DNA from: an archaeon
Lineage (GTDB): Archaea > Nanobdellota > Nanobdellia > Pacearchaeales > GW2011-AR1
Assembly: GCA_018657525.1 (NCBI GenBank)
Contig: JABHWZ010000002.1
Coordinates: forward strand, 148,590 to 212,589
Direction of reading: 5' to 3'
DNA length: 64,000 bases
Shown here: piece after piece, positions 463 to 60,111 of the stretch
Layout of the letters: each line of letters opens with the position of its first letter
Numbering within the stretch: position 1 is the first letter of the stretch
Made by a program: the position numbers and the translations under genes
Notes under the pieces: model-generated
What the model saw: the letters and a program-made list of their open reading frames with translations, nothing else
Databases searched by the model: none
Told to the model about the DNA's origin: nothing

Positions 463-516
463 GTTTATGCGAATGGCCTTCTCTTATCCGAGCTTCGCGA
501 TGCCTATGCGAATGGC
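463..516. repeat. palindromic repeat family B, short copy supplying a stop codon
   Basis: tttatgcgaatggcc...cgcgatgcctatgcgaatggc. Confidence 0.7.
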
Positions 517-2025: not shown

Positions 2026-2554
2026 TGATTACCAAACTATCTCCAAAATCCATACTCATAGTCAACTTAATTTTACCACCAGTATTTACAAAACACTGAG
2101 GGTTATTTTTCTCAATTAATTTTTCTAAATTAATATGTTCAATCACTATTGAATCCAGCCCCTCTCCTGAGCCCACTGGGTAAAAAATTAAATTCTCTTC
2201 CCCATAATATGCTTTTTGCAATTCATTATATTTATCAAAATATTGACCTTTCTCCGAAAAATTAAAATCTACAAAACAAACCTTTTCAATCCTTGACGGC
2301 AAAACATACTCTTTTTCTTGAGAACCCTGGCTTGATTTCCAAATTTTATCAATATCAAATTGCAAATCATCTAAAAATTGTCCTGTTTGAATCTGTTTTT
2401 GTAATCCTAAAAATTTTCCAATAACATAAAATGCAATTGAAATAAAAGCTATAATTAAGATAATTGAAACAATCATTCCAAAAGAAATTTTCACCTGGGC
2501 ATTCTTCCCCCAGGTTCTAGTGCCCCTTGCGGGTATCTGTCCTTTATTTTTCAT
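2018..2554 (-). CDS. prepilin-like membrane protein
   Basis: ORF MKNKGQIPARGTRTWGKNAQVKISFGMIVSIILIIAFISIAFYV. Confidence 0.7.
   Translation of the reverse strand: MKNKGQIPARGTRTWGKNAQVKISFGMIVSIILIIAFISIAFYVIGKFLGLQKQIQTGQFLDDLQFDIDKIWKSSQGSQEKEYVLPSRIEKVCFVDFNFSEKGQYFDKYNELQKAYYGEENLIFYPVGSGEGLDSIVIEHINLEKLIEKNNPQCFVNTGGKIKLTMSMDFGDSLVIIE
2494..2537. repeat. palindromic repeat family A, copy 3, translated in frame
   Basis: cctgggcattcttcccccaggttctagtgccccttgcgggtatc. Confidence 0.85.
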
Positions 2555-2563
2555 TTTATTTTT

Positions 2564-2648
2564 GCCTATGCGTAATGGAGGTCAGGGCATCCGACGGAGG
2601 CAATTTAAAGATGCCTATTCCGATAACGCGATGCCTATGCGTAATGGC
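2564..2648. repeat. palindromic repeat family B, intergenic copy
   Basis: 85-bp element; same gcctatgcg.aatgg..ggcatc..cggaggcaat..gatgcc..ttccgata..gcgatgcctatgcg.aatggc layout as 36486-36570. Confidence 0.85.
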
Positions 2649-34283: not shown

Positions 34284-34377
34284 AAGATTAAAAAAATTCC
34301 AAGGTTTAAATATTTTTAGAACTAGAATCTTTTTTGAGATTTGTTTGGAACTTTTGAAAAAAGAAAGGGGAGGAAGG

Positions 34378-34608
34378 GGAATCGTTCGAAGGATTGCAAG
34401 AGAAAACGATTCTAACTCACAAATCTTATTCAAGATTTGTCAATATATTTTTTTCTACCACTGTAGGTTCTTTTTTTGAAAAAAGAACCCCAAGGGAATC
34501 GTTTGCAGGAGGCAAAGAGAAAACGATTCTAACTCACAAATCTTATTCAAGATTTGTCAACATATTTTTTTCTACCACTGTAGGTTCTTTTTTTGAAAAA
34601 AGAACCCC
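34378..34608. repeat. about 2 tandem copies of a 117-bp unit
   Basis: agaaaacgattctaactcacaaatcttattcaagatttgtcaa.atattttttt...gaaaaaagaacccc at 34401 and 34518; each unit has two hairpins. Confidence 0.9.
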
Positions 34609-34611
34609 ATT

Positions 34612-35960: not shown

Positions 35961-36194
35961 ATGAAAACCGCCGAGGCGATAGGATGGATTGGAACAATTC
36001 TGATTGTTTTAGCATATTTTCTTATCAGTTATAATTTCTTAATTTCTGAAAATTTAATTTATCAAACAATGAATCTTCTTGGAGCTTCCGCACTTTTTTA
36101 CACTGCTTTTAAAAAACACTCAGCTTCAATTGCGACACTTCAATTTATCTGGGGAATAATTGCAGTGGTAGCTTTATTTAGAATTATCCTTTAA
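35961..36194 (+). CDS. small membrane protein
   Basis: ORF with three hydrophobic segments. Confidence 0.6.
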   Translation: MKTAEAIGWIGTILIVLAYFLISYNFLISENLIYQTMNLLGASALFYTAFKKHSASIATLQFIWGIIAVVALFRIIL

Positions 36195-37140
36195 TAGGTT
36201 GCATAACAAATTCTGGCTTTGCAAAAATTTCTTCGTCTCCGAGGAATTTGTAAATTCCCACAAATTTTTCTCCACAAAACACAGAAACAATTTCATCTTT
36301 TTTTAATCTAATCATTTTAACAACATATTTTTTGAGAAAAACTTTTCCATGATACAATTTCTGAACTGCATCTTCTTCAATCTGAACTTCTTTCATAATT
36401 TTTTTAATCGCTTCTTCAGCTGGAATAATATATTTTACCAAATCCTCTTCTTTAATCTTCTTCTCTTCCATCTGCAATTCGCGATGCCTATGCGCAATGG
36501 CTTCCCTGGCATCAGTCGGAGGCAATGAGGAGATGCCCCTTCCGATATCGCGATGCCTATGCGCAATGGCTTTCTCAAGTTCATATAAATTCATAAATTC
36601 TTTATCCTTTTCTGAAAAAATCCCCGCGTTTACCCTTCGTAATTCTAACATATGTGCTCCAATTCCCAGCTCCTTTCCTAAGTCATCAATTAACTTCCGA
36701 ATATAAGTTCCTCCCTCACATTTCACTTTAAACAAAATATCTTTGCCGTCTGTTTCCAATAATTCAAACTTATAAATTTCCCTTTCTCTTTCTTTCCGAG
36801 CAACTCGTGATTTAACAGGGGGAATTTGCTTAATTCTTCCAAGAAACTTTTTTTTAATCATAGATTCAACTTTCTTCAGCTCAACTTTTTCATGCATCCT
36901 CATAATTCCAACATACTCCTTATCATGAGAAAGAAAAAATCCTGTAAGTTTACACGCTCGGCTTAGAGCAATAGGCAAAACCCCTGTAACTTTTGGATCA
37001 AGAGTTCCAAAATGCGAGGCCTTTTTCAAATTTAAATTTTTGTGAATAAAATCTACAATCGCAAAACTTGTAGGACCTGAAGGTTTATCAATATTCAAAA
37101 TTCCAAATTCTAAAAGTTCTTTTAATGATTTTTGTTTCAT
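36184..37140 (-). CDS. truB: archaeal Cbf5/TruB tRNA pseudouridine synthase with in-frame repeat insertion
   Basis: GILNIDKPSGPTSFAIVDFI...HFGTLDPKVTGVLPIAL...GGTYIRKLIDDLG; PUA-like C-terminus. Confidence 0.9.
   Translation of the reverse strand: MKQKSLKELLEFGILNIDKPSGPTSFAIVDFIHKNLNLKKASHFGTLDPKVTGVLPIALSRACKLTGFFLSHDKEYVGIMRMHEKVELKKVESMIKKKFLGRIKQIPPVKSRVARKEREREIYKFELLETDGKDILFKVKCEGGTYIRKLIDDLGKELGIGAHMLELRRVNAGIFSEKDKEFMNLYELEKAIAHRHRDIGRGISSLPPTDAREAIAHRHRELQMEEKKIKEEDLVKYIIPAEEAIKKIMKEVQIEEDAVQKLYHGKVFLKKYVVKMIRLKKDEIVSVFCGEKFVGIYKFLGDEEIFAKPEFVMQPIKG
36486..36570. repeat. palindromic repeat family B copy inside truB
   Basis: 85-bp element beginning gcctatgcgcaatggc and ending gatgcctatgcgcaatggc; flanking 23-bp direct repeats at 36481-36503 and 36550-36572. 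Confidence 0.85.
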
Positions 37141-57063: not shown

Positions 57064-57216
57064 ATGAAACAAAAAGTAAGCATTTCATTAGGGGAAGACA
57101 CTTTGAAAAAAGTAGAAGAAAAATTAACCGAAGGTTTATTCAGAAATAAATCTCATATAATTGAATATTCAGTAAATAAATTTTTGGAGAAAGATAATGA
57201 GCAACCAAAATTATGA
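57064..57216 (+). CDS. 50-aa ribbon-helix-helix-like protein (below ORF track size cutoff)
   Basis: MKQKVSISLGEDTLKKVEEKLTEGLFRNKSHIIEYSVNKFLEKDNEQPKL*; overlaps target 1 start. Confidence 0.65.
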   Translation: MKQKVSISLGEDTLKKVEEKLTEGLFRNKSHIIEYSVNKFLEKDNEQPKL

Positions 57217-58042
57217 AAGCTACAAAAGGGCAGTTGGAGAAACTGCTACTAGATTAATTAGGGAGAATTATCCTCAGAGTTTAGATAGTACAGAGTTCTT
57301 AGATTTTATCTCCAGAAAATGCCACACCAAAACAAATGCAAGACATATTCTGGGAAATATTGAAAATTTGTTATTTCTCAAAAATTTATATTTAAATGAA
57401 CATAAAGATAAAAAGGAAGCAGAGAAAGAAGGAGATTTAGGGGATATTTTGCAAAAAGAAGGGTATAAACATAGAGTAATCGGGGATGTTCAAGGATTGA
57501 TTGATTTTAGGAGGTTTTATGCTCCTGGAGAGGTTTTATGTACTTATAACAATCCAGAAGGAAGATTGAGGAATTATCATATGCTTGTTTTATTTAAAGA
57601 AGATTTAGATGGAATAGGAAGAAGTCCAAATCCAGGGAGGGAAGATGAGTATAGCACAAGTTTATTGAATGTTCAAATTCATAGGGAACATAATAATGTT
57701 TCAATTAAAAGTCGTTATAATCATACTGTTAGTAATCCTGATGCAGTGCATTCAAACCAGTTAGATAGAATTGCTCCTGGATTGACTGGTGCAATTGAAA
57801 AAAGGTTAGGAATAAAAATTGATCGTAAAACAGACGAAGCTATTCCTGACAATTTAAAATTAGCAGGAGATTTTGTCATTAGCTATTGGACTACAAATAA
57901 TGGTTTGCGTAGATTCTGTCTCTACACGAATCTCGTTGCTAGCTCGAGTGTTGACGATTTTTCGGACTCGAATAGCTATGGTCGGTGTGTGGTGGCGGGG
58001 GGTAGACGAAGCCACGAAGTGGCTGAGCAAACGAATGCTTAA
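57197..58042 (+). CDS. DGR target protein 1, C-terminal variable region
   Basis: Carries VR1 aligned to TR with A-only differences. Confidence 0.9.
   Translation: MSNQNYESYKRAVGETATRLIRENYPQSLDSTEFLDFISRKCHTKTNARHILGNIENLLFLKNLYLNEHKDKKEAEKEGDLGDILQKEGYKHRVIGDVQGLIDFRRFYAPGEVLCTYNNPEGRLRNYHMLVLFKEDLDGIGRSPNPGREDEYSTSLLNVQIHREHNNVSIKSRYNHTVSNPDAVHSNQLDRIAPGLTGAIEKRLGIKIDRKTDEAIPDNLKLAGDFVISYWTTNNGLRRFCLYTNLVASSSVDDFSDSNSYGRCVVAGGRRSHEVAEQTNA
57903..57987 (+). repeat. DGR variable repeat VR1
   Basis: 85 nt aligned to TR 59002-59086; 13 differences, all at TR adenines. Confidence 0.95.
58010..58024 (+). other. hairpin downstream of VR1 (agccac-gaa-gtggct)
   Basis: 6-bp perfect stem, 3-nt loop. 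Confidence 0.85.
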
Positions 58043-58054
58043 ACGTAAAACAAA

Positions 58055-58813
58055 ATGAAAATAAAAGTAAGTCACGGAAGAATCATTGGAATTGAAGAAC
58101 AAGACCTAAACCCAGTTCTACCAACTACTGATTTGTCCTTTGTAGAAGATAAAGATTTATTTAGGGAAATTAGAAATTACATAAAATCCGAACATCAGAA
58201 TATAGACTACAAACTGAGTTTTCAAGATGGAGTAATGAAAGGTTCAAATCCTTATCTTCAAATTGCAGTTGATATGTTTTTAAAAAATAATTATCCAAAT
58301 TTTAGAATAGCAAGACAAAGAGATTTAGAAACAGACTTAGAAAAATTCAAAGGATTTTACATGGATTCAGGTTTAGTTTTAAGAAGCAAAGACAACCCAA
58401 ATTCAGCTCAAGCAATAAATCTCTACAATCAATTAAGAGCACGAGGATTAAAGGATTCTGAAATCTTTCCAATGTTCATAGATTTAAGAGGTGTGGAATT
58501 AACAAAAGACTTAGAATTTAAACTAACAGATGAATCAACTTACAAACAAGCAGATTGTTTAAATTGGGATTCTGGAACTAGGTATTCTCAAACAGACGAG
58601 GTAGGTTTACCAAAAGAAAAAGACCTTTCAGGAACACGACGAATTTGGACTACAAATAATGGTCTGCGTAGTTTCTATCTCGACTCGGATCTCGGTGCTG
58701 GCTCGCTTGATGGCGATTTGTCGGGCTCGAATGGCGGTGGTCGGTGTGTGGTGGCGGGGGGTAGACGAAGCCACGAAGTGGCTGAGCAAACGAATTTTTT
58801 ACATAACTTTTAA
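58055..58813 (+). CDS. DGR target protein 2, C-terminal variable region
   Basis: Carries VR2; N-terminal part unlike target 1. Confidence 0.9.
   Translation: MKIKVSHGRIIGIEEQDLNPVLPTTDLSFVEDKDLFREIRNYIKSEHQNIDYKLSFQDGVMKGSNPYLQIAVDMFLKNNYPNFRIARQRDLETDLEKFKGFYMDSGLVLRSKDNPNSAQAINLYNQLRARGLKDSEIFPMFIDLRGVELTKDLEFKLTDESTYKQADCLNWDSGTRYSQTDEVGLPKEKDLSGTRRIWTTNNGLRSFYLDSDLGAGSLDGDLSGSNGGGRCVVAGGRRSHEVAEQTNFLHNF
58662..58746 (+). repeat. DGR variable repeat VR2
   Basis: 85 nt aligned to TR; 20 differences at TR adenines, one T-to-C at the 5' edge. Confidence 0.95.
58769..58783 (+). other. hairpin downstream of VR2 (agccac-gaa-gtggct)
   Basis: Same 6-bp stem, 3-nt loop. Confidence 0.85.
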
Positions 58814-59001
58814 AAAGAAGATTTTAATTATTATCTTGTCTAGCATGGGTGCTAGGCCACACGTCAGCTCACTAGTACATTATTTAGATTTATTTTAAGT
58901 CATAAAATTCATTTTCGACAATTAGTAGCGATGATCTTAGAAAAAAGGGATTGTGAACATTGAAGAAAAGGTGGCACAGAGTAAGCTGGCTAAATAGTTG
59001 C

Positions 59002-59086
59002 GTTTGCATAGATTCTATCTCAACACGAATCTCAATGCTAACTCGAATGATGACGATTTATCGAACTCGAATAGCAATGGTCAATG
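59002..59086 (+). repeat. DGR template repeat (TR), noncoding
   Basis: Adenine-rich AAY codon pattern in the VR frame; between target 2 and RT. Confidence 0.95.
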
Positions 59087-59109
59087 ACTTAGCACCTTAG
59101 ACTTTCATC

Positions 59110-60111
59110 ATGAAAACTTACAAAAATCTCTATAAAAAAATTTATGATAAGAAGAACTTAGTTTCCGCCTGGAAAAAAGCAAGAAAAGGAAAAACACAAA
59201 AGAATTATGTGATTGAATTTGAAAAAGATTTAAGAAGGAATTTGCTCAAACTTCATTACGAATTACAAGAAGAAGCATATGCTCCTCTTCCTCTAAAAAC
59301 TTTTGTTTTAAGAGACCCAAAAACAAGGAAAATCAGTAAAGCGGATTTTAGAGACAGAATAGTTCATCACGCAATTAATAATATCCTTGAACCAATTTTT
59401 GAAAAAAGTTTTATTTACAATAATTGTGCTGGAAGAAAAAATAAGGGAACCTTATTTGCTTTGAAAAGATTCGAAAATTTTAGAAGGAAAATTACCCATA
59501 ATTTTAGCTCTTTTGGTTATTGTTTAAAGTGTGATATAGAACATTATTTTCAAAATATCAATCATGTAATTCTTTTTAAAATAATTAAAAGAAAAATTAA
59601 AGATGAAAATCTATTGAATCTTTTAGAATTAATATTCAAGTGCAACAATTCTTCTGAAGGTTTGCCTTTAGGAAACTTAACCTCGCAATTTTTTGCAAAT
59701 GTTTATTTAGGTGAACTAGATTATTTTATAAAACACAAACTAAATGTAAAATATTACCTTCGTTATGTGGATGACTTTGTTCTTTTACACAATTCAAAAA
59801 ATCAATTAAAAATTTGGAAAAAAGAAATAGAGATTTTTCTAAAGGAAAAATTAGAATTAAAACTTCATCCAGAGAAATCTAGAATAATCCCCCTTTCTAT
59901 AGGAATAGAGTTTGTTGGATTTAGAAATTTTTACTTTCATCAGTTGTTAAAACAAAGGAGCATTCGAATTATGAGAAATAAAATTAATTTTTATAAGAAA
60001 GGAGAGATTTCTTCAAAGAAAATCAAAGAAATTTTCCAAGGTTGGAAAGCCTATGCAAGTTGGGCAGATAGTCATTTCCTAATAAATGAATTCAATAAAG
60101 AAATTCATTAA
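59110..60111 (+). CDS. DGR reverse transcriptase
   Basis: EGLPLGNLTSQFFANVYLGELD, YLRYVDDFVLL, KLHPEKSRIIP. Confidence 0.95.
   Translation: MKTYKNLYKKIYDKKNLVSAWKKARKGKTQKNYVIEFEKDLRRNLLKLHYELQEEAYAPLPLKTFVLRDPKTRKISKADFRDRIVHHAINNILEPIFEKSFIYNNCAGRKNKGTLFALKRFENFRRKITHNFSSFGYCLKCDIEHYFQNINHVILFKIIKRKIKDENLLNLLELIFKCNNSSEGLPLGNLTSQFFANVYLGELDYFIKHKLNVKYYLRYVDDFVLLHNSKNQLKIWKKEIEIFLKEKLELKLHPEKSRIIPLSIGIEFVGFRNFYFHQLLKQRSIRIMRNKINFYKKGEISSKKIKEIFQGWKAYASWADSHFLINEFNKEIH

Follow-up and report, generated by a model that had tools for sequence, protein, structure and literature searches.

The window analysed here, a stretch of 64,000 nucleotides from contig JABHWZ010000002.1 of a Pacearchaeales genome (G000), encodes on its reverse strand a Cbf5/TruB pseudouridine synthase whose gene carries a palindromic repeat (Table 1). 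The segment at 36481–36572 has the arrangement a-b-a, in which two GCCATTGCGCATAGGCATCGC units, here called 'a', lie on either side of a hairpin, 'b'. A preliminary description of this DNA had placed an 85-bp layout at 36486–36570, with a repeat period of 69 bp and in-frame translation within the pseudouridine synthase. All three points hold: the direct repeat is exact at an offset of 69 nt, and the ORF is open throughout, the insert reading AIAHRHRDIGRGISSLPPTDAREAIAHRHRE. Terminal direct repeats, given there as 23 bp, are present, but their exact length is 25 bp (36479–36503 and 36548–36572). An 18-mer of the element has 5 matches in the window versus 0.04 expected from shuffles, and 21 matches in the genome versus none with a reversed control, so a chance origin of the repeat is excluded. 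No Rfam family matches at the element.

Table 1. Positions in the window of the Cbf5 gene, the repeat units within it and the related copies
Feature	Position	Strand	Remarks
Cbf5/TruB pseudouridine synthase ORF	36184..37140	-	318 aa; insert at residues ~191-221
First 'a' unit in coding direction, GCCATTGCGCATAGGCATCGC	36550..36570	-	
'b' hairpin, stem GGCATC/GATGCC, conserved loop part ATTGCCTCCGAC	36508..36537	-	Stem covaries among copies
Second 'a' unit in coding direction	36481..36501	-	
Second a-b-a copy	2564..2648	-	One complete 'a' (2628-2648), one partial (2563-2578)
Third copy, missed in the preliminary description	463..516	-	Two decayed 'a' (463-477, 497-516) joined by 19-bp linker 'c'

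The Cbf5 segment is an insertion

In nearly all relatives, matches to this Cbf5 break at query residue ~195 and restart at ~225, and in an alignment of 29 relatives LYDFEKAVE joins the PUA-linked part directly. The named relatives are metagenome-assembled genomes of Candidatus Pacearchaeota and Nanoarchaeota. All 29 aligned relatives span the site without the segment, which was therefore inserted. An ancestral segment in Cbf5, the possibility that the preliminary description had set against its own reading, is thus rejected. Local tandem duplication or misassembly could be suspected from the segment itself, which is a direct repeat with a 69-nt period, but copies are dispersed over many contigs and other genera; together with ancestry, we give these explanations almost no weight. 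A pseudogene was also rejected, as the ORF is intact, the gene is the only Cbf5 in the genome and its catalytic motif GTLDPKVTG is kept.

An AlphaFold2 model of the protein has a mean pLDDT of 89 and a confident fold outside the blocks at residues 191–230, which hold the insert and score 51–67. Given this low pLDDT, the insert looks in the model like a flexible, ~31-residue loop between the catalytic domain and the PUA domain. In two other genera, the C-terminal part of Cbf5 has extra segments that are in frame, contain short palindromes and are unrelated to this one (CCCTAAAGGG in G003, locus L024; GAGGCAAAGCCTC in G014, locus L034). Because of these, Cbf5 seems to have been hit repeatedly within this Pacearchaeota family.

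Related and other repeats in the window

The same 85-bp layout had been reported at 2564–2648, and this is confirmed, with 68 of 85 bases identical (80%) and a 16-bp direct repeat at the 69-nt offset. A pilin-like gene lies directly downstream of this copy on the same strand.

Other repeats occur in the window. A different G+C-rich hairpin repeat, CCTGGGCATTCTTCCCCCAGG with GTGCCC..GGGCA, is found at 318–456, 999–1074 and 2486–2561 (reverse strand) and falls in the N-termini of neighbouring pilin-like proteins, where it apparently divides KGQ from ISFGM in frame. Between gene ends at 34377–34609, a 116-bp repeat occurs twice in tandem, its copies being 94% identical and 117 nt apart. A diversity-generating retroelement occupies 57197–60111 on the forward strand, with a reverse transcriptase (RVT_1, 59110–60111) and an RT-16 RNA (58839–58998). 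The two ORFs ahead of this reverse transcriptase end in 151-nt repeats (57886–58036 and 58645–58795, 89% identical) that look like variable repeats.

A repeat family dispersed within one Pacearchaeota family

The 'a' unit is a member of a repeat family of Pacearchaeota, designated E, of ~30 bp with the consensus GCSATTRCGCATASGCNTCGCGARRCAYKG, which is built from two short, overlapping palindromes. Of 200 genomes of the order searched with the pattern GCSATTRCGCATASGCNTCGCGA, derived from copies of other genera, 17 carry E; they belong to 12 genera of a single family, and there were no control matches. E was absent outside this family in a phylum-wide sample of 371 genomes, and the viral contigs, phages and plasmids searched held no copies. 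Positions 3 and 14 are C-G in 29 and G-C in 25 of 58 copies; this two-sided change preserves the palindrome and divides by genus, and it may represent one event. The 85-bp layout, taken as the element in the preliminary description, is real, but what is mobile across the family is the ~30-bp 'a' element; two 'a' units around the second hairpin, b, make up the 85-bp composite.

Hairpin b is a second dispersed family. Its loop motif occurs 14 times in G000, in several cases without 'a', and its stem shows both-sided changes in four pairs across nine copies. In-frame b copies are present in GatB (L232) and Trm5 (L234) of this genome. The GatB and Trm5 inserts are formed by a longer repeat, roughly 90 bp, that has the b hairpin at its end.

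A 13-codon step at some single copies of E

For 48 single copies of E, the sequence ending at the left edge was compared with the downstream sequence, with flanks swapped between loci as a control that addresses A-richness as a source of 39-nt repeats. The sole peak of flanking direct repeats is at an offset of 39 nt, where 4 of 48 loci match at 7 or more of 8 positions (0.36 expected; 0 of 1000 shuffles). The 9-bp duplication is perfect at three loci, AATGAATAA in a pilin-like gene of G000 and AATAGAAAA and AAATGAAAA in G118, and a flanking duplication is still visible at ~6 of the 48 loci. Since 30 bp and a 9-bp duplication make 39 bp, or 13 codons, insertion of a single E keeps the reading frame. 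Insertions at gene starts that match this step include MNRK[AITHTHRETLNRK]TKK, MNK[PLRIGIAKRGMNK]RGIS and MK[AITHRHREARKMK]RGLL. The composite Cbf5 copy has no recognisable target duplication.

Longer duplications than the 9 bp of E were seen at L222 and L016 in G000, where ~20–36 bp of the gene start is duplicated around a repeat. The repeat flanked in this way is ATGAAAAATAAAAGAGGATGGATAAGGATTGTTGAA in L222/L080, and in L016 the site is the MetRS start.

Host genes and orientation of E

In G000, E lies in open frame inside the N-tail of uS17 and inside an unnamed protein. Further open-frame copies are found in Elp3 of G024 (12 extra residues compared with PDB 5l7j), in the N-region of GlyRS in G181, in a nitroreductase in G084, at the C-terminus of a NifU-like protein in G118 and, in antisense, in TctA of G028. 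The GatD start carries E in G124 and is free of it in the congeners G028 and G125. E also occurs at the MetRS start in four genera (L016, L052, L054 and L090), a recurrence that could reflect function or inheritance rather than repeated chance insertion. The orientation of E is the same as that of the host or nearest ORF in 51 of 58 copies (ORFs were crudely called and the copies are not all independent), and much of this co-orientation would follow from a polarised A-rich target at start codons.

We considered whether the repeats are selected RNA-level control hairpins in mRNA leaders and tails, acting on translation or on mRNA ends, with the coding copies incidental. The strength of the co-orientation is in keeping with this, but the same bias is also expected from polarised A-rich targets; likewise, the MetRS starts in four genera speak for it, but besides MetRS there is no common gene set. 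Covariation in the b stem, an RNA fold of the Cbf5 segment that outscores shuffled sequences (z −3.9) and short upstream ORFs, some of which end at the next start, are further points for an RNA role. Against these stand the patchy spread of E, the copies within conserved coding regions, and the A·C at pair 7-10 in most copies, which would not be favoured in a sense-strand RNA hairpin. Overall, we judge selected RNA hairpins to be an unlikely explanation.

Copies of E in tRNA introns

Several tRNA genes bearing E were found by ARAGORN when introns were allowed and missed without introns. In G028 (L109), E accounts for practically all of the 41-nt intron of tRNA-Arg(UCU), and in G025 (L053) it lies within a 74-nt intron of tRNA-Thr(GGU). 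Both copies are in the anticodon loop, and ARAGORN leaves a full tRNA after their removal. The same kind of tRNA gene (Arg) contains E in G152, and the Arg locus in L092 is labelled SeC by ARAGORN. Within the genus of G028, the intron is also 41 nt long but different in G125, and short in G124. Intron turnover by E fits these observations, and insertion of E into an older intron is equally possible. For Caldiarchaeum, mobile DNA has been suggested to have given rise to an archaeal tRNA intron (PMC3293823), a case that resembles ours in this respect. The Caldiarchaeum insertion is 1.8 kb with a recombinase gene, whereas E is a 30-bp dispersed repeat that makes up most of the intron.

Related copies in real tRNA introns raise the possibility that the Cbf5 copy is itself a mini-intron, with the tRNA splicing endonuclease excising from the mRNA either 69 nt or the entire insert. 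Introns in cbf5 are known in some crenarchaea and provide a precedent, and the two 'a' units are able to pair around symmetric internal loops. These loops are symmetric and of 2 nt, however, and do not form a bulge-helix-bulge (two 3-nt bulges around 4 bp), and an mRNA intron in Cbf5 was rejected on this basis. Single coding copies also lack pairing exon flanks, and splicing is not needed because the frame is open. We therefore regard a mini-intron as very improbable.

Discussion

The best-known in-frame palindromic elements are those of Rickettsia and of REP-bearing bacteria. The resemblance to Rickettsia palindromic elements (RPEs) suggested in the preliminary description is supported at the level of behaviour, E being a dispersed palindromic repeat that keeps the frame in unrelated genes. 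It extends to the presence of several dispersed palindrome families in a small symbiont-type genome, many of them in frame in conserved genes. RPEs are translated as an extra peptide in conserved host genes (PMC10969869, PMC3733652), and TruB of R. conorii is an RPE host (PMC3733652). The two differ in length, which for RPEs is given as ~150 bp (PMC10969869), or about 100–150 bp, compared with ~30 bp for E and 85 bp for the composite a-b-a. In R. conorii, RPE-4 and RPE-6 terminate in CGTC (PMC3733652), an end that is absent from E, which is archaeal and has a 39-bp step.

REPs are palindromes of 20–40 bp that occur alone or as dimers; some lie within coding genes, those for tRNA pseudouridine synthases among them. 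A REP survey described in-frame insertions and reported interrupted tRNA pseudouridine synthase B genes, among others in R. conorii and S. maltophilia (PMC3733652). With its size class, palindromic structure and dimers, and with TruB genes as known sites of in-frame REP insertion, E might be a REP/RAYT member moved by a Y1 (IS200/IS605-like) transposase. Y1 genes (PF01797) are present in G024, G028 and G084, but there is no match in G025 or G032, nor in G000 or G118, which are the richest in E and both incomplete (genomes 77–91% complete). The GTAG/CGTC end tag of REPs (PMC3733652) is at neither end of the E consensus on either strand. Dimers of E are head-to-tail, an arrangement that is rare among REPs, and E has target duplications. 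Y1 transposition is not known to make target duplications. By its end tag, E falls outside the defined REP families, and no Y1 match was found in the two richest, incomplete genomes; a Y1/REP system was rejected, and we assign it only a very small probability.

E is also similar to MITEs in being non-autonomous and dispersed, and in having short target duplications. MITEs are 70–300 bp long with terminal inverted repeats of 15–30 bp (PMC3733652), whereas E is shorter and lacks such repeats, its ends being GCSATTRCGC and, on the reverse strand, CMRTGYYTCG. In the literature searched we found no archaeal counterpart, and none for Pacearchaeota or DPANN. Selfish, protein-coding palindromes are already known, and we judge E to be a new archaeal form of them.

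We consider it likely that E is a mobile palindromic repeat, non-autonomous and belonging to one Pacearchaeota family, inserting with a ~9-bp duplication and keeping the frame. The element would enter A-rich sites, commonly at start codons (AAATGAAA) or stop codons (TAA), and at a start codon the duplication of the target would leave an intact start downstream. In genes, E would be read as a polar peptide, AI-A/T-H-x-H-RE-x-L-K, that linkers and tails tolerate, and the composite in Cbf5 would form its loop at the junction of the catalytic and PUA domains. The inserted peptide would actually be made, and the insertions are presumably near-neutral. E would have moved by transposition through a putative enzyme; as the target duplications are short and fixed, we infer that this may be a DDE-type integrase.

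The 39-bp step would be a simple explanation of how E enters essential genes without breaking them. The hosts are again small-genome, probably symbiotic microbes, and Cbf5/TruB is once more a target. The copies in tRNA introns offer a testable route to archaeal intron gain. It is possible, although we hold this only tentatively, that one 30-bp palindrome family adds 13-codon peptides to essential proteins, duplicates starts and becomes tRNA introns in the same archaea. If so, E would still be generating tRNA introns in archaea as well as lineage-specific insertions in proteins, and its driver would be an integration enzyme not yet recognised.
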